DNA from: Bacteroidota bacterium
GTDB taxonomy: Bacteria; Bacteroidota; Bacteroidia; Bacteroidales; JABHKC01
Assembly (NCBI GenBank): GCA_018692315.1
Contig: JABHKC010000219.1
Coordinates: forward strand, 1 to 34,688
Direction: 5' to 3'
Length of the DNA stretch: 34,688 nt
Shown here: positions 1,334 to 24,007 of the stretch, in pieces
Layout: every line of letters starts with the position of its first letter
How positions within the stretch are numbered: position 1 is the first letter of the stretch
Notes under the pieces: generated by a model
What the model saw: only the letters and a program-made list of their open reading frames with translations
What the model was told of the DNA's origin: nothing
The model's database searches: none
Made by a program: the position numbers and the translations under genes

Positions 1334-2428
1334 ATGAAAGTAAAGGCGTTAGTATTTAGTGAAAACGAATTCGGGAAACTAGATGGAAAAGTAGCAAATG
1401 GACTAGCAAGACACTCTGAGAAATATGAAATAGTTGGTATTATTGATAGTACAAAAGCTGGACTTGATGCTGGAGAATATCTGGATGGAATAAAAAGTGG
1501 AATCCCAGTATATAAAAGTATGGAAGAGGCAGTTCAGAAACTGAATCTCATTCCAGACTATTTCATTTACGGGATTGCTCCTCTTGCCTCATTTTTAGAC
1601 GAGAAGCAAAGACAAATTATTTTCAGTGCTATGAAAATGGGAATGAACATTGTAAATGGTTTGCCAGAATTCTTTACAGAAGATGACGAATTTGTACAAA
1701 AAGCAAAACAATTTGGAGTACGTATCCTCGACATCAGAAAAGCACCCTTGAGGAAATATTTACACAATTTTACAGGAAATATATACAATGTCAGATGCCC
1801 TGTGGTAACAGTAGCTGGGACAGATTGTGCGGTAGGGAAAAGAACGACTTCGGTTAAATTAGTTGATGGCTTGAAAAAGCTTGGGCTAAATGCCATTTTT
1901 ATTGCAACTGGACAAACCGGAATACTTCAGGGAGCAAGATATGGAGTTGCAGTAGATGTTTTAAGCTCAGGCTTTGCAACAGGAGAAGTTGAGAATGCTG
2001 TTGTTAATGCTTATAAAACAGAGCATCCAGATATCATTGTAGTCGAAGGACAAGGAGCACTTAGTCATCCAGCATTTACATCATCCAGTGCTATTCATAG
2101 AGGAGCAATGCCAAATGCTGTTATCATACAACATCCACCCAAAAGAATAAATCATTGTGATTATCCAAATATACCAATGCCTTCATTAAAAAGTGAAATT
2201 GAATTAATTGAGGTTTTCTCCAGAGCAAAGGTGATTGGTATTACAATTAACCACGAAGATATGACAGATGATGAGGTGAAAAATAAGATTTTTGAGTATG
2301 AATATAAATATGAGTTGCCAGCAACGGATGTTTTAAAGTTTGGATGTGAAAAAATCATTGACAAATTATTCGAAACATTTCCTGAACTACTGAAGGTTGA
2401 GAATCTGATATGGCAACCCCAAGACTAG
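1334..2428 (+). CDS. DUF1611 family P-loop protein (DgcN-like)
   Basis: This 364-residue protein belongs to the DUF1611 family. It has an N-terminal Rossmann-like domain (about residues 1-150) and a C-terminal P-loop domain with the family motif AGTDCAVGKRTT (161-172), followed by ATGQTG (191-196) and EGQGALSHPA (238-247). From family knowledge as I recall it, some DUF1611 proteins (DgcN) act as D-glutamate N-acetyltransferases and are encoded beside a dipeptide-epimerase-like racemase (DgcA). Here the gene overlaps by 19 bp with a racemase-dipeptidase fusion, so a role in D-amino-acid or wall-peptide metabolism is inferred. Substrate not proven. No signal peptide; cytoplasmic. Confidence 0.8.
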   Translation: MKVKALVFSENEFGKLDGKVANGLARHSEKYEIVGIIDSTKAGLDAGEYLDGIKSGIPVYKSMEEAVQKLNLIPDYFIYGIAPLASFLDEKQRQIIFSAMKMGMNIVNGLPEFFTEDDEFVQKAKQFGVRILDIRKAPLRKYLHNFTGNIYNVRCPVVTVAGTDCAVGKRTTSVKLVDGLKKLGLNAIFIATGQTGILQGARYGVAVDVLSSGFATGEVENAVVNAYKTEHPDIIVVEGQGALSHPAFTSSSAIHRGAMPNAVIIQHPPKRINHCDYPNIPMPSLKSEIELIEVFSRAKVIGITINHEDMTDDEVKNKIFEYEYKYELPATDVLKFGCEKIIDKLFETFPELLKVENLIWQPQD

Positions 2429-4149
2429 AGATAAACATTGGTAAAATAAGCCATAACATAAAAACCCTGAAGAAATTGTATCGTTCAAAAGGAGTTGATG
2501 TCATTGGTGTTACCAAGGCGGTATGTGGAAACTCTTCTATTGCAAATACATTTCTAAAGAATGGAATAAGTATACTTGCTGATTCCAGAATTAGCAATAT
2601 AAAAAGGATGCTCACAGAAGGTGTAAAAGCTCAATTCCTTTTGCTAAGAACACCTTTACTAAGTCAAGCCGAAGATGTTGTAAAATATACAGATATTAGC
2701 TTGAATTCAGAATTATCCGTTGTTAAACGGCTATCAAAATTTGCAGTAGAACAAAATACTAACCACAAGATCATATTAATGGTTGAGTTAGGAGATCTAA
2801 GAGAGGGGATCATGCCTTATGATTTAGATCGTACCATTGAACAGATTCTAGAGTTAAAAGGTATTGAATTTGTTGGGTTGGGAACTAATTTAGCTTGTTA
2901 TGGAGGTATTAATCCTGATGAGGAAAAAATGAATGTTTTATCTTCTCTTGCTACCCATGTTGAAGAAAAATTCAGGATAAACTTAGATTTTGTTTCCGGG
3001 GGAAACTCAGCTAATTACGAGTGGTTTATGTCAAGCAAGAATGTTGGAAGAATCAATAATTTAAGAATTGGGGAATCCATCTTTTTAGGACGAGAGACAA
3101 GTCATCGAAAACCAATTCCCGGTTTATTTACCGATGCATTTTCTTTAGTTGCAGAAGTAATTGAATCAAAAACAAAACCTTCAATACCCTATGGAGAAGT
3201 TTCTCAGGATGCTTTTGGAAATATTCCTGAATTTGAAGATAATGGCCAGATAAAGAGAACTATATTGGGCATTGGTTTGCAAGATGTGATGGTCTCCGGA
3301 TTAATTCCCAAATTAGATGTTGACATAATTGGAGCTAGTAGTGACCATATTATTGTTAATTCAACGAAATTAGAACTTAAAGTAGGCGACGAATTAGGAT
3401 TTGATATGAATTATGGTGCTTTACTTTCGGCTATGACATCACCTTATGTAATTAAAAAAACCAGTGATTATATAAATGCTCAGGAATATTGCGAATCGGT
3501 TGAGAGAAAATACCGCCAGCACCTAAAACTTCTTCAAACAATTATAATTGGAGAAAACAATACTCGTTTAATTAGTCTTAAAGATTCAGGATTTGATTTA
3601 ATCTATGAACCATCAGTTCAAAAAAATTATCAATATCTGGTTAGAGAAGCAGTGCATGAAAAAATTGGACGAATTAGTAAAAAATTAGATGAGCAGGATA
3701 AAAAATTGATTATTCGCTCATCCTGGAGATCTTTTGAGCATCAACGTCTTTTATGGGAAGAAAAAGTTGTTTTCATGCAGAAAGAATATCCTAAACTTGA
3801 ACTGGAAGAAATCAAAGAAAATGTTTCTTATTTCATTGCACCACCAACTAAATCATCGCATGCTACAGGAGGAGCAGTAGATGCATTAATTTATGATTTA
3901 AAAAATGACTGTGTAATGGATTTTGGCACAAATGAAGGACTTAATATTGAACTAAATGATAAATGTTACCCTTACCATCCTTTTATTCCATCTCAGGCAA
4001 AACAAAATAGAGCCTTACTTATCAACTTATTTACAGAAGAGGATTTTGTAGTTGATCTTAAAGAATACTGGCACTTTGATTACGGTAATGCAGGATGGGC
4101 TATTGAGAAAGGTGAAGAACATTCGATATATGGTATTATTACAAACTGA
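2410..4149 (+). CDS. Fusion: PLP-dependent amino-acid racemase + VanX-like D-Ala-D-Ala dipeptidase
   Basis: This 579-residue protein has two enzyme parts. Residues 1-350 are a fold-type III alanine/ornithine-racemase-like domain: the PLP lysine is K36 in VIGVTKAVCG, followed by MVELGDLREG (124-133), SGGNSANYE (196-204) and RIGESIFLG (219-227). Residues about 385-579 are an M15D peptidase of the VanX type: RSSWRSFEHQRLLW (436-449), the zinc motif SxHxxGxAxD as SSHATGGAVD (482-491, H484 and D491), and EYWHFD (552-557, E552 and H555). No signal peptide, so both parts should act in the cytoplasm, as VanX does. It overlaps the DUF1611 gene and is probably translationally coupled. Inferred role: splitting a dipeptide containing D-amino acids and racemising a product. 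Which amino acid is racemised cannot be read from the sequence. Confidence 0.85.
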   Translation: MATPRLEINIGKISHNIKTLKKLYRSKGVDVIGVTKAVCGNSSIANTFLKNGISILADSRISNIKRMLTEGVKAQFLLLRTPLLSQAEDVVKYTDISLNSELSVVKRLSKFAVEQNTNHKIILMVELGDLREGIMPYDLDRTIEQILELKGIEFVGLGTNLACYGGINPDEEKMNVLSSLATHVEEKFRINLDFVSGGNSANYEWFMSSKNVGRINNLRIGESIFLGRETSHRKPIPGLFTDAFSLVAEVIESKTKPSIPYGEVSQDAFGNIPEFEDNGQIKRTILGIGLQDVMVSGLIPKLDVDIIGASSDHIIVNSTKLELKVGDELGFDMNYGALLSAMTSPYVIKKTSDYINAQEYCESVERKYRQHLKLLQTIIIGENNTRLISLKDSGFDLIYEPSVQKNYQYLVREAVHEKIGRISKKLDEQDKKLIIRSSWRSFEHQRLLWEEKVVFMQKEYPKLELEEIKENVSYFIAPPTKSSHATGGAVDALIYDLKNDCVMDFGTNEGLNIELNDKCYPYHPFIPSQAKQNRALLINLFTEEDFVVDLKEYWHFDYGNAGWAIEKGEEHSIYGIITN

Positions 4150-5920: not shown

Positions 5921-6769
5921 ATGACAAAATTTGGTGAAGACATTAAGTATATCGACATTGCAAAGATTATTGATGAAAGCAACTCGGAAGTATTAAATAA
6001 ACTGCCTGGATTTGTTGTTAAATGGATTGCTAAAATTATCAGGCAAGATGAATTAAACCGAATTTTTAGTAAATATTCAGATTATACCGGAGTCGATTTT
6101 CTTCCTAAAATAATCGAAGAGTATAATTTAAAGTTAGAAATTGAAGGGAAAGAGAACCTTCCGGAAAACGGAAAATGCTTTTTTGTCGCTAACCATCCTT
6201 TTGGTGTGATAGATGGATTAGTATTAACACACACAGTATCTGAAAAATATGGCAAGCTGAAGGCAATAGCTAATGAGGCTTTTATGTTTGTCCCCCAATT
6301 ACGTCCATTGATTGCAGCGGTAAATGTTTTTGGTCGATCATCAAGAGAGTATATAAAAGCACTGGATGAAACGTATAAAATGGAAATTCCCATAACACAT
6401 TTTCCTGCAGGGATAGTATCAAGGCTATATAAAGGAAAAGTACAGGATTTAATGTGGAAAAAAAGTTTTATTACAAAAGCTAATTCAAGCAAAAGAGATA
6501 TAGTACCGTTCTATTTTTATGGCAGAAATTCCTGTTTGTTTTATATGGTATATTTGATAAGGCAATTGTTTGGCATTAAGATTAATCTTGAGTTATTGCT
6601 CTTGCCTTATGAGATGTTTAAAAAGAGAAATAAAACCATAAAAGTTAAGATTGGAAAACCCATGTCATATCATATGTTCGATAAATCAACATCCCACTTG
6701 GGCTGGGCACAAAAGGTGCGTTCTCATGTATATGAGTTGGGGAACAATAAATCAAAAAATAATTTCTAA
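5921..6769 (+). CDS. Lysophospholipid/lyso-aminolipid acyltransferase (PlsC-like)
   Basis: This 282-residue protein is a membrane-associated PlsC-type acyltransferase. The catalytic motif is NHPFGVID (91-98, the HX4D type: H92 and D98 with variant spacing), and a second block reads HFPAGIVSR (160-168), matching the glycerol-acyltransferase phosphate-binding region. Similar Bacteroidota proteins are hemolysin/OlsA-like O-acyltransferases; related ones make ornithine or glycine lipids (GlsA-like), which is a possible but unproven role here. A methyltransferase starts 10 bp after its stop, so the two are probably cotranscribed and may act on the same lipid. Confidence 0.8.
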   Translation: MTKFGEDIKYIDIAKIIDESNSEVLNKLPGFVVKWIAKIIRQDELNRIFSKYSDYTGVDFLPKIIEEYNLKLEIEGKENLPENGKCFFVANHPFGVIDGLVLTHTVSEKYGKLKAIANEAFMFVPQLRPLIAAVNVFGRSSREYIKALDETYKMEIPITHFPAGIVSRLYKGKVQDLMWKKSFITKANSSKRDIVPFYFYGRNSCLFYMVYLIRQLFGIKINLELLLLPYEMFKKRNKTIKVKIGKPMSYHMFDKSTSHLGWAQKVRSHVYELGNNKSKNNF

Positions 6770-6779
6770 TAAAATAATT

Positions 6780-7550
6780 ATGAAGTTCAATTTTCGCGAA
6801 AGCATGTTCAGATTTTGGTATAGGTATTTGAATAATGTTGATAAAAATGCTGAGATATTATTTATGAATTACGGATATAGTGATAAAGATCAAGAGATTC
6901 CAATAGATGAACAAAATGAAATTAATCGATACTCTATCCAGTTATATCTCCATTTGGTATGTGCAACAGAGATAAAAAATAAAGATATTGTAGAAATAGG
7001 TTGTGGTAGAGGAGGAGGATTGTCCTATATCACTAAGAATTTTTTACCTGCTTCTGCTAAAGGGGTAGATTTAGATAAACAGGCTGTCTCGTTTTGTAAC
7101 CGCCATTATACTTTGGATGGTTTATCGTTTTTACAAGGCGATGCCCAGAATTTAAGTCTGGAGGATAATTCCTGTGATGTGGTGATTAACGTTGAATCAT
7201 CGCACCGATATCCTGATATGAAAGCATTTCTGGGAGAAGTATCTCGTATTTTACGTCCCAATGGATATTTTTTATTTACAGATTTTCGATATGATAATGA
7301 ATTTGAAGATATGAAGAAGGAGCTTGAGTTTAGTGGGATGAAAGTGGTAAAAGAAAGATTTATTAATAAGGAAGTTATTGCTGCTCTTGAGAAAGATGAT
7401 GAACGTAAACGCAAACTTGTAAAAAAATTGATTCCAAAAATTCTTCATAAAATAGCCTTGAATTTTGGCGGAACAATAGGTTCTGAAACATATAACCAAT
7501 TTGCATCACATAAATATATTTATTTCAGCTATATCTTAAAAAAGCTATAA
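6780..7550 (+). CDS. SAM-dependent methyltransferase, class I (lipid-type)
   Basis: A 256-residue class I methyltransferase with motif I VEIGCGRGGG (71-80), KGVDLDKQAVSFCNRHY (94-110), VVINVESSHRYPDM and LRPNGYFLFTDFR. The ESSHRYPD block is shared with methyltransferases acting on lipids or polyketides of the phthiotriol methyltransferase type. The reading frame stays open further upstream, but that part overlaps the acyltransferase in another frame. ATG at 6780, ten bases after that stop codon, is the natural start. The C-terminal 60 residues are basic and may contact membrane. Substrate unknown; the acyltransferase neighbour suggests a polar lipid. Confidence 0.85.
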   Translation: MKFNFRESMFRFWYRYLNNVDKNAEILFMNYGYSDKDQEIPIDEQNEINRYSIQLYLHLVCATEIKNKDIVEIGCGRGGGLSYITKNFLPASAKGVDLDKQAVSFCNRHYTLDGLSFLQGDAQNLSLEDNSCDVVINVESSHRYPDMKAFLGEVSRILRPNGYFLFTDFRYDNEFEDMKKELEFSGMKVVKERFINKEVIAALEKDDERKRKLVKKLIPKILHKIALNFGGTIGSETYNQFASHKYIYFSYILKKL

Positions 7551-9954: not shown

Positions 9955-10220
9955 GCTATTTTGCAATCTGTTAGTAATTAAACTATTCCAAACCAATAAG
10001 CGTTGGATAATCAAGCATCAACAGATGATAAAGCCTTTGCTAGTTCACAATACCTAACACTTTTTATAGTTTGCTTCCTGGTTTGAAAAATGCTAAAAGA
10101 ATTTATATATGTTTTAATGAAAAGGAATATTTATTCAATAAAAAAACCATAAATTTGGAAGCTTTTTGATAGACTGATGTGAATGAATAAATGAGAAAAT
10201 TGAAAATAAAGAATAAAAAA

Positions 10221-11609
10221 ATGAGAAAACACACTATTGTAGTATTTATTAGCATTTTAGTTCTACTGAATTCATGTGGAAATAACTCAAAACCAGAACC
10301 TTCAATTAAAAATATTGCAGGAGCTTTAGAACTTTTTTCAGAACCTGAACGGCCTGATGGGCAAAAAGATGTAATCGAACTTCGATGCGAGCCTATCCAA
10401 ACGATTCGAATAGCATTTATAGGCCTTGGTATGAGAGGGGCAGGAGCTATTTATCGATACACATTTTTAGAAAATGTAGAAATTGCAATACTTTGCGACC
10501 CGGTGCAAAAGAATATTGACAAATGCCAGCAAATTCTGAAAGATAATAATTTACCAGAAGCTGATGTATATATTGGCGAAGATGATTGGAAAAAAATCTG
10601 CTTACGAGACGATATTGATTTAATTTATGTATGCACACATTGGGATTTGCATACCCCCATAGCTGTTCATGCTATGGAAAACGGGAAACATGTTGCAATG
10701 GAAGTTCCGGCAGCTCTAACTATCGATGAATGTTGGCAGTTGGTAAATACTTCCGAAAAAACCCGAAAACACTGCATGCAACTAGAAAATTGCAACTACG
10801 ACTTCTTCGAAATAGCAACACTAAATATGGCACAAAAAGGTCTTTTTGGCGAAATAGTTCATTGCGAGGGTGCATATATACATGATTTAAGATTTCTAAA
10901 TTTTGATGAGGAAGGATACTGGAATATGTGGCGTTTGAAACATTTGGAAAAAGAAGATGGGAATACTTATCCTACGCATGGCTTTGGTCCTATCGCACAT
11001 ATTTTAAATCTTCACAGAAGCGACAAAATGAATCATCTGGTTTCCATTTCAAGCAATCAGTTTGGAATGACAGAATATGCAAAAAAGAAATTTGGGGATA
11101 ATTCCGAATATGCAAAAAAAGACTACAAAAAGGGAGACATAAATACATCGATAATAAAAACAGAAAATGGGAAAACTATAATGTTGCAACACGATGTAAC
11201 AAGTCCACGACCATATAGCCGTTTACATTTAATTTCCGGTACAAAAGGTTTTGCCCAAAAATATCCTCAAAAAGGGATAGCACTTGAACCGAATGCTCAT
11301 CATTTTTTACCAAAAAACCAATTAGACTCATTGTTAGAACTTTATGCACATCCTATTGTAAAAAAAATAACAGAAAAAGCCAAAGAAGTAGGCGGACATG
11401 GCGGCATGGATTTTATTATGGATTACCGCCTGATTTATTGCCTTACACAGGGCTTACCATTAGATCAGGACGTTTATGATGCAGCAGAATGGTCATCAAT
11501 AATCGAACTTTCTCGCAAATCATCAGAAAATAATGGAATGCCAATAAAAGTCCCGGATTTTACTCGTGGAGCATGGAAAAAAATAAATAAAGTTACTTAT
11601 TACGAATAA
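10221..11609 (+). CDS. GH109-like alpha-N-acetylgalactosaminidase / Gfo-Idh-MocA family lipoprotein
   Basis: A 462-residue lipoprotein: positively charged N terminus, hydrophobic stretch and lipobox LLNSC (Cys19). The NAD-binding Rossmann fold follows (GLGMRGAG, about 68-75, in IAFIGLGMRGAG), then HWDLHTPIAVHAMENGKHV and MEVPAALTIDECW. The downstream blocks ENCNYDFFE, IVHCEGAYIHDLR, YWNMWRLKH and YPTHGFGP are those of glycoside hydrolase family 109, whose members cleave alpha-GalNAc by an NAD-dependent redox mechanism. Other Gfo/Idh/MocA activities cannot be excluded. The frame allows an upstream ATG at 10191; I prefer 10221 because it gives a normal lipoprotein leader. A -7-like TAAATTTG lies at 10150-10157. 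Confidence 0.75.
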   Translation: MRKHTIVVFISILVLLNSCGNNSKPEPSIKNIAGALELFSEPERPDGQKDVIELRCEPIQTIRIAFIGLGMRGAGAIYRYTFLENVEIAILCDPVQKNIDKCQQILKDNNLPEADVYIGEDDWKKICLRDDIDLIYVCTHWDLHTPIAVHAMENGKHVAMEVPAALTIDECWQLVNTSEKTRKHCMQLENCNYDFFEIATLNMAQKGLFGEIVHCEGAYIHDLRFLNFDEEGYWNMWRLKHLEKEDGNTYPTHGFGPIAHILNLHRSDKMNHLVSISSNQFGMTEYAKKKFGDNSEYAKKDYKKGDINTSIIKTENGKTIMLQHDVTSPRPYSRLHLISGTKGFAQKYPQKGIALEPNAHHFLPKNQLDSLLELYAHPIVKKITEKAKEVGGHGGMDFIMDYRLIYCLTQGLPLDQDVYDAAEWSSIIELSRKSSENNGMPIKVPDFTRGAWKKINKVTYYE

Positions 11610-11692
11610 TACAATTTTTTTGACTGAAGATTTATAACTTAGTTTTAATAATACAGTAGTTTTCAACTATTTTGCTATAACATACCATGCTA

Positions 11693-11713
11693 GCACGGAT
11701 TTGCAATCCGTGC
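11693..11713. repeat. Small hairpin repeat (CGGATT-loop-AATCCG family)
   Basis: GCACGGATT and AATCCGTGC form a perfect 9-bp stem with loop TGC. It is one of about six copies, some degenerate, between 11.69 and 16.09 kb. The 11610-12013 stretch otherwise holds only a decayed relative of the 66-bp repeat near 11775-11820 and the terminator at 11913. Confidence 0.7.
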
Positions 11714-11912
11714 AGCAATTATTGCTATAATTTAGCAATTTTACCTGTTTGTCATCCAAAGGTGATCATATTGATAATATATGCTTATCAGGTTCAAGTA
11801 TTTTGTTGTAAATAGAAAATTAAATTTTCACAATTATTCAAAACATTGAATTACCACTTTCTGAGTGTTCTTTTACTTCAATCAAGTCCCAAAACCAAAA
11901 GGAATATAAACA

Positions 11913-11940
11913 AAAAAGCCGGCTTTTTGCCAGCTTTTCT
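11913..11940. terminator. Bidirectional intrinsic terminator
   Basis: AAAAAGCCGGC, TTTTT loop and GCCAGCTTTT form a stem (one C-A mismatch) with A-rich and T-rich flanks on either side. It lies between the convergent genes ending at 11609 (+) and 12014 (-), the expected place for a shared terminator. Confidence 0.6.
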
Positions 11941-12013
11941 TATTTCAAAATAGACTACAACTAAGCGTAGTTTCAAAACTACGCTCACCCACTAACCTTT
12001 TCAACAATAGCCT

Positions 12014-12646
12014 TTACTTCTCAACATTATACCTTACTAATCTTTTCTCACTAATAATCGGACTATGTATATAAAAATATGATTGAAGCACTTTCCCAAC
12101 ATTGTTAGAATATAAGTTATTTAGAAATCTTGGATTTTCTACCCCGATTATTTGTTGTGGTGTGGTAACTGTTCCTTTAAAGTTTAATACTTCAAAATCT
12201 CCGGCTGGAACGTTGATTGGATCAGACAATATTTCCATCTGGTAGGTAAGTGTATATAATGTATCCTCATTCAATACTTCTGTTTTCGAAGCTAGAATGT
12301 TAGAAAAATTATCTTCCGAAAATCTAATTTCACCTTTGTCATTTACTATATATCCACTTGAATCTCTTAAGATGTCTAAAACACCCCAGGAAATTCCATT
12401 ATTCGGATAATTTGTCCCTTCCAAAACAAAATACTGAAGATTATTGATAATTGTGTCTCTGCTTATTATTACACTATCAATTCTGTCTTTTTCAATTTCA
12501 TTTCCTAACGAATCAATGTCATAATGAACATAAACCCAATAATTACCAATGTCCAATGGCAAATATTCTGATTTGTTAACTGAGTCATTTTTTTTGCACG
12601 AAGCAAAAAAAGTAATCACTAATACTAAAAACAATAATTTTCTCAT
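12014..12646 (-). CDS. Lipoprotein of unknown function
   Basis: A 210-residue lipoprotein: MRKLLFLVLVITFFASC gives a clear lipobox with Cys17, followed by a lysine-rich spacer. The mature part begins YLPLDIGNYWVYVHYD, a block often seen at the start of Bacteroidota lipoproteins of unknown role, and is rich in beta-strand-forming residues with a PAGDFEVLNFKGT segment. No enzymatic motif is visible. It stands alone, convergent with the GH109-like gene and followed by a terminator. Anchoring in the outer or inner membrane cannot be told. Confidence 0.75.
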   Translation of the reverse strand: MRKLLFLVLVITFFASCKKNDSVNKSEYLPLDIGNYWVYVHYDIDSLGNEIEKDRIDSVIISRDTIINNLQYFVLEGTNYPNNGISWGVLDILRDSSGYIVNDKGEIRFSEDNFSNILASKTEVLNEDTLYTLTYQMEILSDPINVPAGDFEVLNFKGTVTTPQQIIGVENPRFLNNLYSNNVGKVLQSYFYIHSPIISEKRLVRYNVEK

Positions 12647-12814
12647 TTCAAAAATTTTAAGTTAAACAACTAAATTAAAACGAGTAAATTTTTATCATAA
12701 GCTTTATATTATTTGTCCTTGAAACGAATATTGATATAAAGTATTGTTATTATCTGATACATTTATTGTTTTGAATGCCGCAAATTTGTAACTTGTGGCT
12801 CTGCCTATAAAAAA

Positions 12815-12846
12815 GCCCGCCGAAGGATGCAATCTTTGCAAAGCGG
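12815..12846. other. Hairpin in the 12.65-13.18 kb gene-free stretch
   Basis: CCCGC and GCGGG can pair around an inner GCAA-TTGC stem. The word GATGCAATCTTTGC here recurs near 13150 and 14198. The surrounding 12647-13175 stretch has only short frames with no family signal and looks like decayed repeat DNA. Confidence 0.35.
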
Positions 12847-13137
12847 GGAAGCATTCAAATTTACGTGCGACAAGTTGTAATATATAAATATGTTTTTGCT
12901 ATATTGTAATCACACCAGTTGGAAACTACGCTGAGACATTACTATGTTGCAAAAGTGTAGTTTTAAAACTATGCAGAGCCGGGTTATTTCAAAAGGTTTT
13001 GGTGAAAAAAAACCAATTATCACAAACGAAACTGAAAGCGGGAAGCAGAAAAACAGAAGAGTAGAGTTTACTATTTTGAAGAAATAGAATTGCTAAAATT
13101 AGAATCACGCAAGCTTTAGTTTTTGAAAACTTCGAAT

Positions 13138-13175
13138 GAAAAAAAGAGGAGATGCAATTTTTGCTTGACGGGGGA
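13138..13175 (-). terminator. Repeat-derived terminator-like element, copy 1
   Basis: Lies directly after the stop of the gene at 13176 (-). On the minus strand it reads GCAAAAATTGC (GCAA/TTGC stem), CATCTCC, then CTTTTTTTC. It matches the element at 14184-14220, which sits in the same position after the next minus-strand gene. Confidence 0.35.
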
Positions 13176-13919
13176 TTATAATCCTTTTGCATACTGTGAA
13201 AGAACATAATCAATTTCTCCCAAAAATAGCCCTTTATCCTTAAGTCTTCTACTAATTTCTTTTATTGGTAAACCGTTTCTAAACCATTCTCTTACCAGAG
13301 ATAATGCTTGATCAAGATTTATTTCCATATGGGTAGGAAATGAAGATATCATATTCGATGGTCTTATTTTCTTCTTTATTAAGTCAATATCATGTTTCAA
13401 TTGCATAAAGTCTTTCCTTTCATCGCTAACTTCCATACTTTTAGATTTGTTAACTTCTAAAAATGTTGGAGGAATAGCATCTTCTGGACTCTCTATAGTT
13501 TCTTTCAAAGCCTTAGCTATTTTACTTTGAAGTATTTCTCCCCAATCTGGAAAATTTTTGTCATATTCAATCACCCTTAAACTTCTTAAATCAAAAGGTA
13601 CATCATCGATTGAAGCAGTAACAAGTATAGCTGGTTTTGTAATAGCATGAGCTAATCCTAATTCATATAAAACATTTGGGTTTTTATTTGTCAAGTCCGC
13701 CAATATTATTTTGGCTTCATTTGTGAATCTCCAAATGTCATTAACAATGTTTCCAGGTCTATATATATCATCAGCTCTTTTTGCTTCAAAACCAGCCTTT
13801 TCAATGGCAGGAACATATACTTTAAAATAATATTTATCAAACCATCCACCAAAAGGCATTATGGTAAAACATATAGGATTTTTTTCTTCAAGTTTTGAGG
13901 TTTCTTCTTTCTTTTTCAT
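13176..13919 (-). CDS. NDT/TIR-like nucleotide-hydrolase-fold protein
   Basis: This 247-residue protein has an N-terminal flavodoxin-like domain of the nucleoside 2-deoxyribosyltransferase/TIR-like group: CFTIMPFGGWFDKYY (17-31), the block RADDIYRPGNIVNDIW (48-63), ILADLTNKNPNVLYELGLAH (72-91) with the likely catalytic E86, then KPAILV. The C-terminal part is helical and ends in a segment that looks like a winged or HTH-like bundle (EWFRNGLPIKEISRRLKDKG). Such domains occur in nucleoside metabolism and as effectors of anti-phage systems that destroy NAD or nucleotides. No partner gene of a known defence system is adjacent, so the role is open. The frame extends to a GTG at 13967, but that part lies in a hairpin repeat, so ATG 13919 is chosen. 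Confidence 0.65.
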   Translation of the reverse strand: MKKKEETSKLEEKNPICFTIMPFGGWFDKYYFKVYVPAIEKAGFEAKRADDIYRPGNIVNDIWRFTNEAKIILADLTNKNPNVLYELGLAHAITKPAILVTASIDDVPFDLRSLRVIEYDKNFPDWGEILQSKIAKALKETIESPEDAIPPTFLEVNKSKSMEVSDERKDFMQLKHDIDLIKKKIRPSNMISSFPTHMEINLDQALSLVREWFRNGLPIKEISRRLKDKGLFLGEIDYVLSQYAKGL

Positions 13920-14014
13920 TTCTTTTTTTAGGCTATGTGTGTTTTTATTCACGGATTGCACATCCACTTTAGCTGGGTTAAATCTTTCACGCTTGTGCGG
14001 ATTTGCAACCAGCT

Positions 14015-14080
14015 GAAATATATTTTATCAGTTTCAAGTATTTTGCATTTATCAGACATTATGCAAAGATAAAAATTATT
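14015..14080 (-). promoter_or_regulatory. 66-bp dispersed repeat with promoter-like motif, copy 1
   Basis: It shares 57 of 66 positions with 15975-16040 and has exactly the same length. On the minus strand its start carries TATCTTTG (14064-14071), which fits the -7 consensus TAnnTTTG and points toward the minus-strand gene starting at 13919. A matching -33 TTTG was not seen. Hairpin repeats of the CGGATT type lie on both sides. Confidence 0.55.
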
Positions 14081-14117
14081 TTTTAGATTTTTGCTTAGTT
14101 TAGTTTTGATAGTAGTA

Positions 14118-14132
14118 CGGATTGTAAATCCG
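14118..14132. repeat. Small hairpin repeat (CGGATT family)
   Basis: CGGATT, loop GTA, AATCCG: a perfect 6-bp stem related to those at 11693, 15911 and 16077. The 13920-14220 intergenic stretch consists mostly of this repeat, the 66-bp repeat and the terminator-like element. Confidence 0.6.
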
Positions 14133-14183
14133 CAATAGCAGTCTGCATAGCCGTTTGAGCAGGGGTAGTTGAAATTTACAAAT

Positions 14184-14220
14184 GAAAAAAACGAAGATGC
14201 AATCTTTGCTTGGCAGGGTT
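14184..14220 (-). terminator. Repeat-derived terminator-like element, copy 2
   Basis: On the minus strand, immediately after the stop of the T9SS cargo gene: AAGAT-TGC-ATCTT, CG, then TTTTTTTC. The stem is short but the T-run is good, and the same element follows the gene at 13176. Confidence 0.4.
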
Positions 14221-15843
14221 TTATTCCTTCACCACTAAACTTGTTCTTATTTTATCATCAAAGTAAACCTTTACTAAATACAATCCTGATGGTAAGTTGT
14301 TGGTTTCAATTTTTATTCTTAGTCCTGAAACAGCTTTGCTAATCAAAGCTTTTCCATTAATATCAATTATCTCAATATTTACCGTACCCAAATCAGCTTG
14401 CTCAATTATTAAATAATCATTAAATGGATTTGGATAAATATTAAAACTTGTTTGCAACCTATCATTAATTCCAATATCAAAGGTTTTACAAAGAAAATTG
14501 TCATCTATTAGTATTTCCAATTCAGAATTCGGTGCTAGACATTGAAAACACAATTGATTATTATTTATTCCGTCTTCATATGCTCGATTTAGGTTTACAG
14601 TGTGAGTTTGTCCGGGAAGAATTTCGAGGTCGGAGAATTTTTGATAAAAAAAGTTTTGTGCGCAATTAAAACCTCCGTGCAAATCAGAAAAAACAGCAAA
14701 AGAAGCTATAGTATCATTTCCATTGTTTTTAATCGAAAGCTCAGTATTGAAGCTATAACCTATTACCAATGAATCATCAAGAAAATAACCATATTCTAGT
14801 ACAATACTATCAATGTCGAAATCTATTATTTCAATATCCGGGAGAACGACATTATCAATTTCTCCATCAGGTGTTTGAAAATTGTATATCCCAATCTGAT
14901 TTGTATAGGAATTTCCTACGAAAGTATAGCTATTCCCAATTACAATAAAATCTAAATCATTCATTAAAACCGGAAATTCCAATGTGTCGGGGTTTGCAAA
15001 ATCTTGAAAGTTTAATAGTTTAATACTATCATAAAGAACAAGTTGAATCCATAAGCTATTCTCATAGAAATTCATTTTTTTAACAGTGCTTAAACTTGTG
15101 ATAACCGTATCAATAATAATTAAACCCGTGTCTATCCTTATCAGATATTGGTCAACCAAACTAAACACAGTATCATTATTTATTAGCAACTGATTAATTG
15201 AATTTGAGAACTGGATTGAGTCAATTAATACTAACGAACTATCTGATTTGTAAATTTTATTTTGAGTATGAATTAAATAAGAGGTAGGGCTAATAGCATA
15301 TATGGCATTTATTTCAGAATCTAAATTAGGCTCGTATTCATGAATTTTTGTACCGTAGATATTTGATTTGAAAATCGAATTAGTGGAACTGACCAAAATA
15401 GTTCCATCAGAAGCTATGTCAATGTTTTTAGGTTCATAATTTAAAGAAGAATACTCATGTGGTACTTCCGGATAACCAATACTAAAAATCTCGTTTCCAT
15501 TTTTATCATATTTCGAAACAATTATTTGATCTAATCCGGCGATACAGCCAACTGGTATGTATCCGGCCGAATAAATGTAATTCGAATCAGTATAGATTAT
15601 GTCATGCCGTCCTTCAATATTCCAAAGTTTCTGTCCGTCTGTGTTATAAGCAAATATATTAGGATAATGGCAAGAAGCATCACTTAAGAATCCGCTAAAA
15701 AGAATTATTGAATCCTGAAATAATTCTTTATCAGTTACATGAGAAATGTTGTAATCCGAGTCATCAACAACCTCATTCCAAAAAGTTTGGGCATTCACTA
15801 AAATTGAAACTAATATAAAAATAGCAGTTATAATTCTTTTCAT
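14221..15843 (-). CDS. Secreted protein with type IX secretion sorting domain
   Basis: A 540-residue exported protein. The signal peptide is about 1-19 (MKRIITAIFILVSILVNAQ). Residues about 30-340 have repeated short beta-rich units that look like a beta-propeller (WNIEGR, ISKYDKNGNEIF-like segments, phrases with DSI/DTV). About 340-460 form an Ig-like region. The last 75 residues are a type A T9SS C-terminal domain: FNIYPNPFNDYLIIEQ, IEIIDINGKALIS, LPSGLYLVKVYFDDK. It should therefore cross the outer membrane through the Por/T9SS machinery and be released or attached to the surface. No catalytic motif seen; binding or adhesive role possible. Confidence 0.85.
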   Translation of the reverse strand: MKRIITAIFILVSILVNAQTFWNEVVDDSDYNISHVTDKELFQDSIILFSGFLSDASCHYPNIFAYNTDGQKLWNIEGRHDIIYTDSNYIYSAGYIPVGCIAGLDQIIVSKYDKNGNEIFSIGYPEVPHEYSSLNYEPKNIDIASDGTILVSSTNSIFKSNIYGTKIHEYEPNLDSEINAIYAISPTSYLIHTQNKIYKSDSSLVLIDSIQFSNSINQLLINNDTVFSLVDQYLIRIDTGLIIIDTVITSLSTVKKMNFYENSLWIQLVLYDSIKLLNFQDFANPDTLEFPVLMNDLDFIVIGNSYTFVGNSYTNQIGIYNFQTPDGEIDNVVLPDIEIIDFDIDSIVLEYGYFLDDSLVIGYSFNTELSIKNNGNDTIASFAVFSDLHGGFNCAQNFFYQKFSDLEILPGQTHTVNLNRAYEDGINNNQLCFQCLAPNSELEILIDDNFLCKTFDIGINDRLQTSFNIYPNPFNDYLIIEQADLGTVNIEIIDINGKALISKAVSGLRIKIETNNLPSGLYLVKVYFDDKIRTSLVVKE

Positions 15844-15910
15844 ATTTCAAGTTTTTATTAAAAGAGATAGTTATTCCAGCATTGGTTGCACTGATACGGA
15901 CACTCAAACT

Positions 15911-15933
15911 CACACGGATTTGTAATCCGTGTG
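15911..15933. repeat. Small hairpin repeat (CGGATT family)
   Basis: CACACGGATT, loop TGT, AATCCGTGTG: a perfect 10-bp stem. Compared with the 11693 copy, the outer stem bases differ on both arms while pairing is kept, as expected if the structure matters. Confidence 0.7.
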
Positions 15934-15974
15934 ATCATATTAGACAGAATCCAGCTAATAGTTTTCATTGTGAT

Positions 15975-16040
15975 GAAATATGCTTTATCAGTTTCATGTA
16001 TTTTATATTTGTCAGACATTTAACAAAGATAAAAATTATT
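15975..16040 (-). promoter_or_regulatory. 66-bp dispersed repeat with promoter-like motif, copy 2
   Basis: Second copy of the element at 14015-14080. On the minus strand it has TATCTTTG (16024-16031), directed toward the T9SS cargo gene that starts at 15843. The 15844-16220 intergenic stretch holds this repeat, two hairpin repeats and the divergent promoter at 16154. Confidence 0.55.
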
Positions 16041-16076
16041 ATTAAATTTAGGTTTATTTATTGTTGATAGATGCAC

Positions 16077-16089
16077 GGATTACAAATCC
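16077..16089. repeat. Small hairpin repeat (CGGATT family, degenerate)
   Basis: GGATT, loop ACA, AATCC: a 5-bp stem and a decayed member of the family at 11693, 14118 and 15911. Confidence 0.45.
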
Positions 16090-16153
16090 TAGCTTGCGGG
16101 TACATTCTATTTTAGCTAAGCGAAGCCTGTTACTTCACTTATCAGAAAAATTA

Positions 16154-16192
16154 CCAAAATTGTCAAACTACTTTTTTTTCTCATATTTGTTA
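16154..16192 (+). promoter_or_regulatory. Promoter of the beta-galactosidase operon
   Basis: TTG (16160-16162), a 19-nt spacer and CATATTTG (16182-16189) approximate the Bacteroidota consensus. The segment from CCAAAATTG to CTCATATTTGTTA matches 29965-30003 at 34 of 39 positions. It lies about 30 bp before the ATG at 16221. Confidence 0.6.
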
Positions 16193-16211
16193 TTTTTTGA
16201 TTGAAAATTAA

Positions 16212-19370
<3,159 letters not shown>

Positions 19371-19378
19371 ATAATTTT

Positions 19379-20278
19379 ATGAAACCAAGCCTATTGATTC
19401 TTGCAGCCGGAATGGGTAGCCGCTACGGTAGCCTGAAACAAATAGATCAAATTGGTCCTTCCGGCGAAACCATCATCGATTATTCCATTTATGACGCTAT
19501 TAGCTACGGATTTGGAAAACTTGTTTTCGTTATCAGAAAAAATATTGAAAAGGAATTTCGCGAAGTCTTTCTTAGAAAATATGAAGGAAAAATTGAAATC
19601 AACTATGTTTTTCAAGAAATTGAGAATTTACCCGAAAACTTTAGAGTTCCTGAAAACAGAAAAAAACCCTGGGGCACAGCTCATGCAGTTTTAGTGGCAA
19701 AGAAAAAGATAAACGAACCATTTTTAGTAATCAATGGAGACGATTTTTATGGACGCGATGCTTACCGTGTATGTTCGGAATTCTTACAAAATATTGAGAA
19801 TGACATGGACTATTGTATGCCGGGATATTTTGTAAAAAACACCTTATCGGAAAATGGAGGTGTATCGCGCGGCATCTGCGAATTAAAAAATGAATATCTA
19901 CAAGCAATTGTAGAACGAAAAAATATAGTTCAAGATAAAGGAAAAATATTTTTCATTAATGAAAATAATCAAAAACAATTTCTAAGTGGTTTAGAATATT
20001 GTTCTATGAATATGTTCGGTTTTAGTCCTTCTATTTTCCAATTCTTAGAAGAAGAATTTAGAAAATTTCTGCATGAAAATCAGGATAATTTAGGCTCTGA
20101 ATTTTTTCTCCCTCTTGCTATAAACAATTTGTTAGAAAAGGAAAAAATCTCACTTAAAGTTTTGCCTAATAGTGCCAGGTGGTTTGGAGTTACTTATAAA
20201 GAAGACAAACAAGCAAGTAAAGATAAAATATATTCTCTTGTTAGAAATGGCAAATATCCTGAAAACCTATGGCTATAG
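19379..20278 (+). CDS. Sugar-1-phosphate nucleotidyltransferase
   Basis: A 299-residue NTP-transferase of GT-A fold. The N-terminal signature is LAAGMGSRYGSLKQ (8-21), followed by PSGETIIDYSIYDA, and the metal-binding region includes VINGDDFYGRDAY. The protein should convert a sugar-1-phosphate and an NTP (probably UTP) to a nucleotide sugar. It overlaps the next gene, a NahK-like anomeric kinase, by 10 bp, so the natural pathway is HexNAc-1-phosphate (or galactose-1-phosphate) to UDP-sugar. The window has no GalT, and this enzyme could take its place. Sugar specificity is not readable from motifs alone. Confidence 0.8.
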   Translation: MKPSLLILAAGMGSRYGSLKQIDQIGPSGETIIDYSIYDAISYGFGKLVFVIRKNIEKEFREVFLRKYEGKIEINYVFQEIENLPENFRVPENRKKPWGTAHAVLVAKKKINEPFLVINGDDFYGRDAYRVCSEFLQNIENDMDYCMPGYFVKNTLSENGGVSRGICELKNEYLQAIVERKNIVQDKGKIFFINENNQKQFLSGLEYCSMNMFGFSPSIFQFLEEEFRKFLHENQDNLGSEFFLPLAINNLLEKEKISLKVLPNSARWFGVTYKEDKQASKDKIYSLVRNGKYPENLWL

Positions 20279-21330
20279 AACTTAACATAAAGAATATTGC
20301 AAATCAGTTTAAAACCGTAGGAGAATTCAGCAGTTTCACAAGCTTGGGAGAAGGTTTAATTAACGATACATATTTGTTGGAAACAACAGCAGGTAAATAT
20401 GTTCTTCAAAAAATAAATCATCATATTTTTAAGAATATCCCAGCCTTAACTCGAAACAAAGTACTGATTACACAACATATTGCATCTAAAAAAAATAGTC
20501 AGACTATACAATTCCTTCCCACACATAAAGCTTTGTATTATTATCAAAATTCTGAGGGATACTGGAATCTATCGAAATATATAGAAAATTCTGTTACCAT
20601 TTTGAAAGTTTCCAATCCAAAAATTGCCTTCGAAGGAGGCAGAGCTATCGCTGAATTTCAATCATATTTGACTGATTTTGATCAAAACAATATTGTTGAT
20701 CCTATCCCCGATTTTCACAATACTTCTAAACGAATACGTGAGTTAAATGAAATTTGTCGAAGAAATACTAATAACAGAAAACTGGAAGTTGAAGACTTGA
20801 TTGAACTTGCAAATCGGTATCAAAAATTTATTGTTGCCATCGACAAACAGATTAAAAACAATAGTATCCCAAAAAGAATAACGCATAACGACACTAAAAT
20901 TAGCAATGTGCTTTTCGATGCCAATGAAAAAGCTATTTGTATGATAGATTTAGACACTTGTATGAAAGGCTCTGTTTTGCACGATTTTGGCGATGCTTTG
21001 CGCTCAGGCACCAACACTGGGAACGAAGACAATCCTGAGAATGTTGCTATGGATATTGAACTTTTTCAGGCTTATGCCGAAGGATATTTATCTATAGCAA
21101 AAACATTTTTATGCAAAACAGAATTGGAAAATCTGGTATATGCCGGACCTTTAATAACTTACGAACAATTCGTTCGCTTTTTAAGCGATTATCTCGACGG
21201 CGATAAATATTACAAAATTCATCACCCAAAACATAATCTTGAAAGAGCAGAATCTCAGGCAAAATTGTTTTTGAGCATGATGGACCAAATAAATGAAATG
21301 AAACTTACAATTAAAAAATTGTCTGAATGA
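20269..21330 (+). CDS. nahK: NahK-like N-acetylhexosamine 1-kinase
   Basis: A 353-residue kinase of the aminoglycoside-phosphotransferase fold. Catalytic loop THNDTKISNVLFD (205-217, D208), metal-binding IDLD (226-229) and HDFGDALRSGTN (238-249) match the NahK/LnpB type, which phosphorylates GlcNAc and GalNAc at C1. In bifidobacteria NahK works in the lacto-N-biose/galacto-N-biose pathway. Here it lies between a nucleotidyltransferase (10-bp overlap) and a mutarotase (4-bp ATGA overlap), in an operon with beta-galactosidase and galactokinase. HexNAc released from beta-galactosyl-HexNAc is the probable substrate. Other small phosphotransferase substrates remain possible. Confidence 0.75.
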   Translation: MAIELNIKNIANQFKTVGEFSSFTSLGEGLINDTYLLETTAGKYVLQKINHHIFKNIPALTRNKVLITQHIASKKNSQTIQFLPTHKALYYYQNSEGYWNLSKYIENSVTILKVSNPKIAFEGGRAIAEFQSYLTDFDQNNIVDPIPDFHNTSKRIRELNEICRRNTNNRKLEVEDLIELANRYQKFIVAIDKQIKNNSIPKRITHNDTKISNVLFDANEKAICMIDLDTCMKGSVLHDFGDALRSGTNTGNEDNPENVAMDIELFQAYAEGYLSIAKTFLCKTELENLVYAGPLITYEQFVRFLSDYLDGDKYYKIHHPKHNLERAESQAKLFLSMMDQINEMKLTIKKLSE

Positions 21331-22370
21331 ATCCGGAAAAATTCAAGAAAAATATTAATGGTAAAAAAGTCGAATTGTTTGTTCTGGAGAATTCAAATCG
21401 GATGCAGGTTTTTATAAGTAATTACGGTGCAAGGATTTTATCACTAAAATTTCCGGACAAAAACAGGAAACTGCGGGACATCGTTTTAGGGTATTCGAGC
21501 ATTGATGAGCACATAAACGGACTGCCATACTATGGTGCAATAATTGGAAGGTGCGCCAACAGAATATCAAAAGGAAGATTTAAGCTTGACGGAAAAGAAT
21601 GCCAGCTAAGCCAAAATATATTTCCAAATCACTTACATGGAGGCACAAAAAGTTTTTCGCATCAGGTGTGGGAACTTGTCGAATATTCTAACACAAAGTT
21701 AAAATTGAAATACACAAGTCCTCATTTGGAGGAAGGTTATCCGGGAGAACTGACTTGTGTTGTTAGCTTTCAGATTACAGAAAAAAATGAGCTAATTATA
21801 GAAATGAATGCAAAAACTGACAGAAAAACAATTGTCAATTTAACAAGTCATCCTTTTTTTAATCTTGAAGGGGAAGATTTCCCGAATGTGTTAAATCATC
21901 AGCTTAAAATCAATGCAGATAGTTATTTGTCCATGAGTCCGGATTTTGTTCCCGAAAAGAAGATAAATCTACAAAGCGATTCTGTTTTCGATTTCAACAA
22001 TTTCAAAAAAATTGGAAAGGATATTCATACAAATCACCCACAATTGATACTGGCAAAAGGATACGATCATAATTTCATTTTAAATGAAAATGATGCTAAA
22101 ACCACCGCTGCTTCCGTCTATGCTTCAAAGTCAGGCATCAGTATGGATTTATATACAAATCAGCCCGGCATTCAGTTTTACACAGGAAACGGTTTAAATG
22201 GCACCGATACTGGAAAAACTGGAAACAGCTATAAAAAACATGCTGCATTTTGTCTTGAACCGCAGCATTTTCCTGACAGTCCTAACAATCCTGATTTTCC
22301 ATTGATTGAACTAAATCCTAATGAAAAATATTACCACTTTACGAAATTTCACTTTTCAAACAAATATTAA
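21327..22370 (+). CDS. galM: Aldose 1-epimerase (galactose mutarotase)
   Basis: A 347-residue GalM-family protein. It has IGRCANRISKGRF (73-85), NHLHGG (101-106), the catalytic-histidine block NLTSHPFFNL (171-180, H175) and, near the C terminus, the block FCLEPQHFPDSPN with the catalytic glutamate. It interconverts beta- and alpha-galactose, giving the alpha form used by galactokinase. It starts inside the stop of nahK (ATGA) and is followed at 2 bp by the symporter, so it belongs to the same transcript. No signal peptide is evident, so it is cytoplasmic. Confidence 0.9.
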   Translation: MNPEKFKKNINGKKVELFVLENSNRMQVFISNYGARILSLKFPDKNRKLRDIVLGYSSIDEHINGLPYYGAIIGRCANRISKGRFKLDGKECQLSQNIFPNHLHGGTKSFSHQVWELVEYSNTKLKLKYTSPHLEEGYPGELTCVVSFQITEKNELIIEMNAKTDRKTIVNLTSHPFFNLEGEDFPNVLNHQLKINADSYLSMSPDFVPEKKINLQSDSVFDFNNFKKIGKDIHTNHPQLILAKGYDHNFILNENDAKTTAASVYASKSGISMDLYTNQPGIQFYTGNGLNGTDTGKTGNSYKKHAAFCLEPQHFPDSPNNPDFPLIELNPNEKYYHFTKFHFSNKY

Positions 22371-22372
22371 TT

Positions 22373-24004
22373 ATGAATTTTGGACTTATTGATTACATCA
22401 TTTTTGCCCTTTATGTTTGCCTTATATTAGGAATTGGATTGTGGGTATCACGCACCCAAAAAGGGAAAACCAAAACTGCAGAAGATTACTTTTTAGCGAG
22501 TAAATCACTCCCATGGTGGGCTATCGGTGCGTCATTAATTGCTGCCAATATTTCGGCAGAACAAATAATTGGTATGTCGGGGCAAGGTTTTGGAATTGGC
22601 CTGGCTATTGCTTCTTACGAATGGATGTCTGCTATCACACTGATTATTGTCGGGAAATATTTTCTACCAATTTTTATTGAAAAAAAACTATACACCATTC
22701 CGGATTTTATAAAACAGCGTTATAGTGTAGAATTAAAAACAATTCTGGCAATATTTTGGATTTCATTATTCACTTTTGTAAATCTGACAACTGTACTTTT
22801 ATTGGGTTCCAAAGCTTTAGATATGATTATTGGCAACGGAAACGGAGATTTATTGTGGTATGGAATTATTGGTTTAGCACTTTTTGCAGCAGCCTATTCG
22901 CTATGGGGAGGGCTTTCTGCAGTTGCATGGACAGATGTTATCCAGGTAATTTTATTAGTAATTGGTGGAGTAATCACCACCCTTATTGCTCTAGATAAGC
23001 TTACACCAGATGGAGGTATTTGGCAAGGTACGCAACATATTCTACAGACTGCACCCGAAAAATTCCATCTTATCCTAAGCAAATCTCATCCACTTTACAA
23101 TGAGCTGCCTGGAATTGCAGTTTTGGTTGGAGGCATGTGGGTAGCCAATTTATATTATTGGGGTTTTAACCAGTATATTATTCAAAGAGCCCTGGCAGCT
23201 AAAAATCTTCGGGAAGCACAAAAGGGAATTGCTTTTGCCGGTTTTCTTAAGCTGATAGTTCCTTTTATTGTTGTTATTCCGGGAATTATTGCATTTGTGC
23301 TATATACACAACCTGATGGTACTTCGATAGTTCCGGGAGTACAGGAAAATCTGGCAATTTCGGAAACTTATCAGGCCAACGACAATGCTTATCCCTGGTT
23401 GATAAAATCTTTTGTTCCAGTAGGACTGAAAGGTTTGGTAATAGCAGCTTTGGCAGCAGCCATTGTTTCATCTCTGGCATCTATGATTAATTCCATATCA
23501 ACCATTTTTACGATGGACATTTACAGGCAATACATCAATAAAAATGCAAATGACAGACAAACCGTCAGAACCGGAAGAATAGTCGCCTTTATTGCTTTAT
23601 TATGTGGTGTTTTAATTACTCCGCTTCTAAGTAGCGAACGCGGAATATTCAATGTTATTCAGGAATATACAGGTTTAGTAAGTCCGGGAATTTTGGCTAT
23701 TTTCATTCTTGGTTTGTTTTGGAAAAAAGCTACTAACATTGCAGCAATTTGGGGTGCAATTTTGTCGATAGCAGTGGCTTTCCTTTTTAAATTAGGCTCT
23801 CTGCCATGGATGGATCAGATGGCTTTGACTTTCCTTGCTTCTATTTTAATAATCGTCATTATTAGTTTAATTGAACATCGTGGAAAAGACGATGCCAAAG
23901 GTATCAATTTGACAAAATCGATGTTTAAAACCACTACATCTTTTAATATTTCTGCTTTTATAATAATGATTGTTCTGGCTTTTCTCTATTCAATTTTTTG
24001 GTAA
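22373..24004 (+). CDS. Sodium/sugar symporter (SSS family, SglT-like)
   Basis: A 543-residue inner-membrane protein with about 14 hydrophobic segments, from IDYIIFALYVCLILGIGLWV to the last one near the C terminus. Family blocks are AEDYFLASKSLPWWAIGASL, AANISAEQIIGMSG, YSLWGGLSAVAWTDVIQ and NQYIIQRALAAKN, with LASMINSISTIFTMDIYRQY late in the sequence, all typical of solute:sodium symporters of the glucose/galactose type. In this operon it is the obvious importer for galactose or for the products of the exported beta-galactosidase. Cotranscribed: 2 bp after galM and 3 bp before galK. Confidence 0.9.
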   Translation: MNFGLIDYIIFALYVCLILGIGLWVSRTQKGKTKTAEDYFLASKSLPWWAIGASLIAANISAEQIIGMSGQGFGIGLAIASYEWMSAITLIIVGKYFLPIFIEKKLYTIPDFIKQRYSVELKTILAIFWISLFTFVNLTTVLLLGSKALDMIIGNGNGDLLWYGIIGLALFAAAYSLWGGLSAVAWTDVIQVILLVIGGVITTLIALDKLTPDGGIWQGTQHILQTAPEKFHLILSKSHPLYNELPGIAVLVGGMWVANLYYWGFNQYIIQRALAAKNLREAQKGIAFAGFLKLIVPFIVVIPGIIAFVLYTQPDGTSIVPGVQENLAISETYQANDNAYPWLIKSFVPVGLKGLVIAALAAAIVSSLASMINSISTIFTMDIYRQYINKNANDRQTVRTGRIVAFIALLCGVLITPLLSSERGIFNVIQEYTGLVSPGILAIFILGLFWKKATNIAAIWGAILSIAVAFLFKLGSLPWMDQMALTFLASILIIVIISLIEHRGKDDAKGINLTKSMFKTTTSFNISAFIIMIVLAFLYSIFW

Positions 24005-24007
24005 ATT

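Follow-up and report, generated by a model that had tools for sequence, protein, structure and literature searches.

D-Amino acids and peptides with D-residues make up an abundant and slowly degraded part of the organic matter of marine sediment, and to our knowledge their use by most bacteria and archaea is poorly known. The described systems closest to the locus analysed here are the DgcN-DgcA pair, formed by a D-glutamate (D-Glu) N-acetyltransferase of the DUF1611 family and an N-acetyl-D-Glu racemase; the ornithine racemase Orr; the VanX and DdpX dipeptidases; and the serine racemase VanT with the M15 peptidase VanXY of vanC/vanG-type systems. M15 enzymes act on peptides of quite different sizes (PMC6403190). 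The locus studied is a two-gene unit in a stretch of 34,688 nt (the window), contig JABHKC010000219.1 of a Bacteroidota bacterium (Bacteroidales; JABHKC01; assembly GCA_018692315.1, completeness 99.6%). A DUF1611 gene is followed, with an overlap, by a gene in which a racemase dependent on pyridoxal 5'-phosphate (PLP) is fused to an M15 peptidase. With it the cell probably handles D-amino acids and D-peptides in a manner not described before.

Anatomy of the unit and recurrence of the fusion

Relatives of the unit were collected in a scan of one genome per species via two peptide motifs, and the best 80 of 185 loci were analysed; many of them are metagenome-assembled genomes (MAGs) and the counts describe close relatives only. 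The peptidase was fused in frame to the racemase in 31 of the 80 loci, adjacent in 28, separate and divergent in one and absent from 20. Among the 31 fused loci were 19 records, including several isolates, of the 597-residue form of Aquimarina, along with MAGs whose labels include Neomarinimicrobiota, Zixiibacteriota and Electryonea. Two relatives of the whole unit were found in a class-level search, both with the peptidase split off: L047 (contig shared with L131), with 69% and 63% identity to the window unit, and L048, with 56% and 59%. A first-pass annotation of this DNA had called the fusion unusual; it is real, yet it is not unique to this genome and relatives with adjacent, separate genes exist.

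The close relatives with separate genes, and a run of seven A at the window junction, are what an assembly or sequencing error joining two genes would have in its favour. Such an error is considered practically negligible and was rejected, since the same fusion was present in 31 of the 80 independent records, Aquimarina isolates included, and the codons of the window junction (SDYINAQEYC) line up in register with those of another fused clade (SDRVNAHEYC). Moreover, the codon at the former peptidase start was ATA in the window and in most Aquimarina, GTG in another fused clade and AAC in L095. In the window the peptidase frame therefore retains no start codon, and one erroneous indel would not be enough to produce the fusion. 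On the racemase tree, a quick search in which the exact number of changes is soft, the fused and split states needed four changes, at least three of them forced by well-supported branches; therefore, fusion (or splitting) occurred several times.

The overlap of the two genes, already reported in the first-pass annotation, was confirmed, and it marks a translational coupling. Among the relatives, the DUF1611 and racemase genes likewise abut or overlap, 4 and 19 nt being the commonest overlaps. Two loci deviated from this arrangement. L078:2915-4531 (genome G016) holds a DUF1611 gene with an N-terminal extension and a downstream racemase match to the first ~52 residues only, and it appears to be a decayed or interrupted unit. 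L050:8581-11562 (genome G294) has kept M15, SPFH-type and AraC-type genes, and neither DUF1611 nor a linked racemase.

Features of the unit and of the upstream regulator gene in the window
Feature	Position	Strand	Basis
DUF1611 gene, 364 amino acids	1334..2428	+	Pfam PF17396 and PF07755; AlphaFold2 model
P-loop GTDCAVGKRTT, DUF1611 residues 162-172	1817..1849	+	mostly invariant in 33 aligned relatives
19-nt overlap of DUF1611 gene and fusion gene	2410..2428	+	open reading frame (ORF) coordinates
Racemase-M15 fusion gene, 579 amino acids, one polypeptide	2410..4149	+	ORF and Pfam; same in-frame fusion in 31/80 loci
Fold-III PLP racemase domain, residues 1-352, Orr-like	2410..3465	+	NCBIfam NF040742; fold match
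K36, presumed PLP-binding lysine	2515..2517	+	invariant in all 40 relatives covering the site
ATA codon (I355) where split relatives have the peptidase start ATG	3472..3474	+	codon comparison of junctions
M15 (VanX/VanY-type) zinc dipeptidase domain, residues 355-579, without its own signal peptide	3472..4146	+	Pfam; VanX 1r44
Zinc ligands H484 and D491 in SHATGGAVD	3859..3882	+	invariant across aligned M15 domains
E552 and H555 in EYWH	4063..4074	+	invariant across aligned M15 domains; opposite VanX EWWH motif
AraC-type regulator, 186 amino acids	498..1058	+	HTH_18 (Pfam)

The domain calls of the first-pass annotation were borne out by Pfam matches in both ORFs, and the residues it had singled out (K36, SSHATGGAVD and EYWH) lie where it had placed them; K36 and the M15 residues H484, D491, E552 and H555 were invariant in all aligned relatives covering them. 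Membership of DUF1611 was clear, with both Pfam domains over their cut-offs: PF07755 at 216 bits (cut-off 25) and PF17396 at 75 bits (cut-off 22.6). The protein is laid out as a Rossmann-like N-terminal domain (residues 40-136) and a P-loop domain (residues 146-341). Its AlphaFold2 model (mean predicted local distance difference test score, pLDDT, 89) aligned over the full length with solved DUF1611 proteins, namely 2obn (Z 38.1), 2g0t (Z 35.7) and DgcN 7xrj (Z 34.0). The P-loop is intact, and G162, T163, D164, A166, G168, K169 and T171 were mostly invariant in the alignment of 33 relatives. The DgcN model NF041892 (NCBIfam) gave 159 bits, below its cut-off of 480.

The racemase half matched Ala_racemase_N (PF01168; residues 8-226, E 9.8e-25), and its best curated match was Orr (NF040742), over the full domain length, with 412.6 bits, short of the cut-off of 480. 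Genes for ornithine degradation are missing from its surroundings; the neighbours are the AraC-type, DUF1611, methyltransferase and acyltransferase genes. When compared with alanine racemases, the AlphaFold2 model of the fusion protein (mean pLDDT 89) gave a fold match of Z 27, and both the fold-III barrel and an invariant candidate PLP lysine of Alr were found. A weak profile-profile match to canonical Alr, in which the N-terminal part alone was aligned, placed K36 opposite the lysine region. The C-terminal domain of canonical Alr carries the second catalytic base, which in alanine racemase is a tyrosine. This base is Tyr-265 (PMC8142540). In the fusion protein, the Pfam match list lacked this C-terminal domain (PF00842) and the Alr model TIGR00492 reached 38 bits, below its cut-off of 168. 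The domain is thus not recognisable here.

The peptidase half matched PF01427 (Peptidase_M15; residues 468-562, E 8.3e-9, 35.9 bits against a cut-off of 27) and, in a neighbouring stretch, PF02557 (residues 411-499, E 1.9e-8). Its fold was judged by sequence profiles, in which VanX 1r44 was the closest solved relative (E 9.6e-4); the matches listed in PDB structure searches with the whole fusion were fold-III racemases and their relatives only. All of the M15 catalytic residues are present, and the domain is a predicted zinc peptidase in which, by analogy with VanX, E552 and H555 would be the catalytic base and the third zinc ligand. The scores of the VanX model NF033115 (26 bits) and of the DdpX model NF007557 (38.5 bits) were far below the respective cut-offs of 320 and 176. 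On these scores D-Ala-D-Ala, which the first-pass annotation had put forward for assay, is no more than a candidate substrate of this domain.

Gene partners and the exchange of the racemase

DUF1611 was directly upstream of the racemase in 72 of the 80 loci. Relatives of the unit are spread over many bacterial phyla, and archaea have a simpler form that lacks the peptidase. The peptidase was fused or adjacent in 59 of 70 bacterial loci vs. none of 10 archaeal loci, a tally in which one record without a domain label was counted as bacterial and some archaeal labels rest on short MAG contigs (one Heimdallarchaeota contig measures 467 kb). This distribution is expected if M15 feeds on a wall-derived peptide.

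The suggestion that DgcN-type DUF1611 proteins pair with a different racemase was corroborated in 20 DUF1611 neighbourhoods from Bacteroidota, sampled independently of the 80 loci. In 13 of the 20, a gene of an enolase-superfamily cluster adjoined DUF1611 or lay within two genes of it. Two members of this cluster scanned with Pfam were MR_MLE proteins, and one of them was DgcA with 509 bits, over the cut-off. One of the 20 (L208, which to judge from length and gene order shares its contig with L099) had the racemase-M15 form. In the DUF1611 tree the racemase-linked proteins formed one side of a branch (support 97), next to the enolase-linked group (98). As the nearest sampled relatives of the racemase-linked clade are linked to an enolase-type racemase, the racemase partner was exchanged, with the same logic of an acylating enzyme plus a racemase on both sides of the exchange.

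The racemases also formed groups according to their partners. Those linked to DUF1611 were one supported group in the tree, apart from Bacteroidia racemases that adjoin small GNAT acetyltransferases in 32 of the 33 tree rows of this sister group and are often accompanied by an M20 amidohydrolase, an SSF symporter and a canonical Alr. The gene run L053:3642-8917, repeated in many Bacteroidia, contains all of these (SSF symporter, GNAT, M20 amidohydrolase, canonical Alr and Orr-like racemase) and looks, from its gene content, like a catabolic cluster for D-amino acids or N-acyl amino acids. An ATP-grasp gene similar to D-Ala-D-Ala ligase (Ddl) stands in for DUF1611 in one proteobacterial MAG and in three Heimdallarchaeota, and is seen directly upstream of the racemase at L130:4983-7068 and L149:1562-6660. 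In the proteobacterial MAG this ligase is preceded by an octopine-dehydrogenase gene, which is part of the same set of overlapping genes, and by a 662-residue protein without a Pfam match.

Three unrelated types of amine-acylating enzyme thus recur beside this racemase family: DUF1611, which is counted among them by analogy with DgcN, GNAT and the Ddl-like ligase. Since related racemases stand beside GNAT or Ddl-like ligases, the recurrent partner would be an enzyme that acylates amino groups, and this recurrence is taken here as the strongest functional clue.

The same partners could be read as a route to D-amino-acid conjugates, in which the racemase would make the D-form from the L-form, DUF1611 (a P-loop protein, ATP- or CoA-dependent) or the Ddl-like ligase would couple it, and M15 would edit or recycle the product. 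The Ddl-like replacement and the octopine-dehydrogenase gene speak for such a route, as does the P-loop domain of the DUF1611 model, which in structure comparison resembles dethiobiotin synthetase and other ATP-dependent enzymes. Nevertheless, this route is unlikely: M15 domains degrade peptides and do not make them, and they are fused or adjacent in most of the bacterial loci; no exporter or tailoring genes were conserved around the unit in the relatives; and the closest characterised DUF1611 enzyme is an acetyltransferase.

Homologues of the AraC-type gene were found near the unit in L048, L095, L099, L115, L118, L129, L133, L152, L154 and others, mostly 275-1736 nt upstream in relatives from Bacteroidota and Ignavibacteria, whereas those of Aquimarina lie 4-7 kb downstream and on the opposite strand. 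This gene may regulate the unit, to judge from its position. Scans for promoter consensus sequences gave no more matches than chance, and no motif stood out.

Proposed function and genomic background

The unit is proposed, with about even confidence, to be a cytoplasmic module for D-amino acids and dipeptides with D-residues. We infer the substrates, the acyl donor and the direction of flux from sequence. The M15 half would hydrolyse a small D-residue peptide, for which D-Ala-D-Ala or a D,D-dipeptide like it is the leading candidate; the racemase half would interconvert the freed amino acid between its D- and L-forms via a PLP aldimine on K36; and the co-translated DUF1611 protein would N-acylate one enantiomer, with acetyl-CoA as the most likely donor, as in the related DgcN. 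At the core of the module would stand the racemase and the amine-acylating enzyme, with the peptidase as a bacterial add-on feeding it; where the peptidase is fused to the racemase, as in several lineages, the product would pass over directly. A pathway that splits peptides with D-residues and converts the product, as the first-pass annotation had suggested, fits the comparative evidence.

On a wider scale, the chances seem evenly balanced that this is a module crossing domains of life, in which DUF1611 swapped an enolase-type for a PLP racemase, so that racemization of N-acyl-amino acids gave way to acylation of a free amino acid that can be racemized, and in which bacteria recruited and repeatedly fused a VanX-like peptidase, placing D-dipeptide cleavage and racemization on one polypeptide.

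Several points weigh against the proposed module. The scanned members of these DUF1611, racemase and M15 clades all fell below the cut-offs of characterised families, and the clades are without known activity. A PLP racemase uses a free amine and can do without the acylation on which DgcA depends, so that any position assigned to DUF1611 in the flow is a guess. The loci with a Ddl-like partner speak for synthesis and not for breakdown. Three bacterial loci, one of them at a contig end, have the racemase and M15 without an adjoining DUF1611. Furthermore, the VanX aspartate which presumably binds the amino group of the substrate is replaced by G510; D-Ala-D-Ala may for this reason not be the M15 substrate.

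A doubtful alternative to the module is that D-Ala-D-Ala in the cytoplasm is turned over under stress in the manner of VanX/DdpX. The peptidase would destroy the product of Ddl, the racemase would convert D-Ala to L-Ala for carbon and nitrogen, wall synthesis would be reduced, and DUF1611 would be accessory or act on D-Glu. VanX is indeed the best solved M15 relative, with aligned catalytic motifs; the fusion is cytoplasmic, and a Ddl is present in the genome. Flavobacterial units lie near genes for an AraC regulator, Cpn10, SPFH-type and cupin proteins, a setting that could belong to a stress response, and DdpX is potentially lethal through D-Ala-D-Ala hydrolysis (PMC6403190). However, the M15 half is far below the VanX and DdpX cut-offs given above, the racemase is Orr-like and lacks a recognisable Alr C-terminal domain, and the DUF1611-racemase pair of archaea without M15 would be left unexplained. 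The same pair limits the wall-peptide recycling that the first-pass annotation had considered: as it occurs in archaea without M15, recycling can explain the M15 part only.

The window genome has four Ala_racemase_N genes, namely an 826-residue frame with the size of a MurF-Alr fusion, a 221-residue YggS-sized one, a 378-residue one and that of the window, and further one clear Ddl, on another contig, and one DUF1611. With the MurF-Alr-sized frame and the Ddl, the genome probably does not need the unit for wall synthesis. An enolase-type racemase was not found, as there was no PF13378 match in this nearly complete genome; the unit therefore cannot belong to the DgcN-DgcA pathway, which was rejected for the window DUF1611. 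For this reason and for the low DgcN score, D-Glu, named as a possible substrate in the first-pass annotation, is not supported as the DUF1611 substrate.

The idea of self-protection from a peptide antibiotic, by destruction of a peptide with D-residues or alteration of the wall target as by VanXY and VanT without a ligase, has in its favour the weak matches of the racemase to VanT and of M15 to VanX and VanXY. It is very improbable. The unit contains no additional D-Ala-D-X ligase and the genome no second clear one, for which a van-type resistance operon was rejected; VanRS-like genes, a biosynthetic cluster or export genes were not seen nearby; and the taxonomic spread is very wide, archaea included.

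The rest of the window holds several other genes. Downstream of the unit, a lyso-glycine lipid acyltransferase GlsA gene (5921-6769, over the curated cut-off) is followed by a fatty-acid/phthiotriol methyltransferase-like gene (6651-7550). The genes at 10191-25162 and 30115-31836 (GH109-type oxidoreductase, GH2 beta-galactosidase, nucleotidyltransferase, APH-type kinase, aldose epimerase, SSF symporter, galactokinase and a PNGase F-like protein) look like a cluster for the use of glycans containing galactose or N-acetylgalactosamine (GalNAc). Between them, a type IIG restriction-modification methylase with Eco57I/MmeI/TaqI_C domains (25587-29186) carries an IS200-like transposase domain within its frame (Y1_Tnp, residues 604-709, E 5.9e-11, about 27396-27713). 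A group II intron match (D1-D4-3, 37.5 bits vs. 32) is located at 77-156 on the minus strand, near the left end of the contig.

Comparison with known systems

Each of the enzyme families is known; their combination, the recurrence of the fusion and the exchange of the racemase appear to be undescribed. Literature on DUF1611, DgcN, ornithine racemase, VanX/DdpX and the fusion gave no description of the operon or the fusion, within a coverage that leaves out most subscription journals, and the papers found to mention DgcN do so solely in connection with D-Glu use. A Mariana Trench survey counted dgcN widely in Bacteroidetes and Marinisomatia (PMC12363236). If its dgcN models are broad, part of these counts may be the racemase-linked DUF1611 clade, and caution is advisable with surveys that count DUF1611 genes as dgcN, as this clade looks like something else. 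The unit offers a defined, assayable enzyme set in many uncultivated lineages and in culturable Aquimarina. If the proposal is true, one clade within a domain of unknown function would gain a function, and the pairing of acyltransferase and racemase would be seen to outlast the exchange of the racemase.

The unit resembles Orr in that this is the best curated match over the full racemase domain, but the window protein is below the cut-off and no ornithine-degradation genes stand beside it. With VanX/DdpX it shares the cytoplasmic location and the zinc-ligand and catalytic-glutamate motifs, which align with VanX 1r44; it differs in scoring far below both cut-offs, in also matching the VanY model and in being fused to a racemase. 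VanT and VanXY are likewise a racemase and an M15 peptidase encoded together, whereas the window unit has no ligase, a racemase without a membrane domain and a weak sequence match. In the Bacteroidia clusters with GNAT, Orr-like racemase, M20, Alr and SSF, a homologous racemase stands beside an acetyltransferase and often a peptide or amide hydrolase, but the acetyltransferase and hydrolase are not homologous to those of the window, a transporter is present and the racemase belongs to a separate clade. DgcN-DgcA has in common with the unit a DUF1611 gene next to an amino-acid racemase and the DgcN fold (7xrj, Z 34). Unlike that pair, the window unit combines a PLP-dependent racemase, in place of the enolase-type DgcA, with a DUF1611 protein scoring 159 against the DgcN cut-off of 480, and adds M15.

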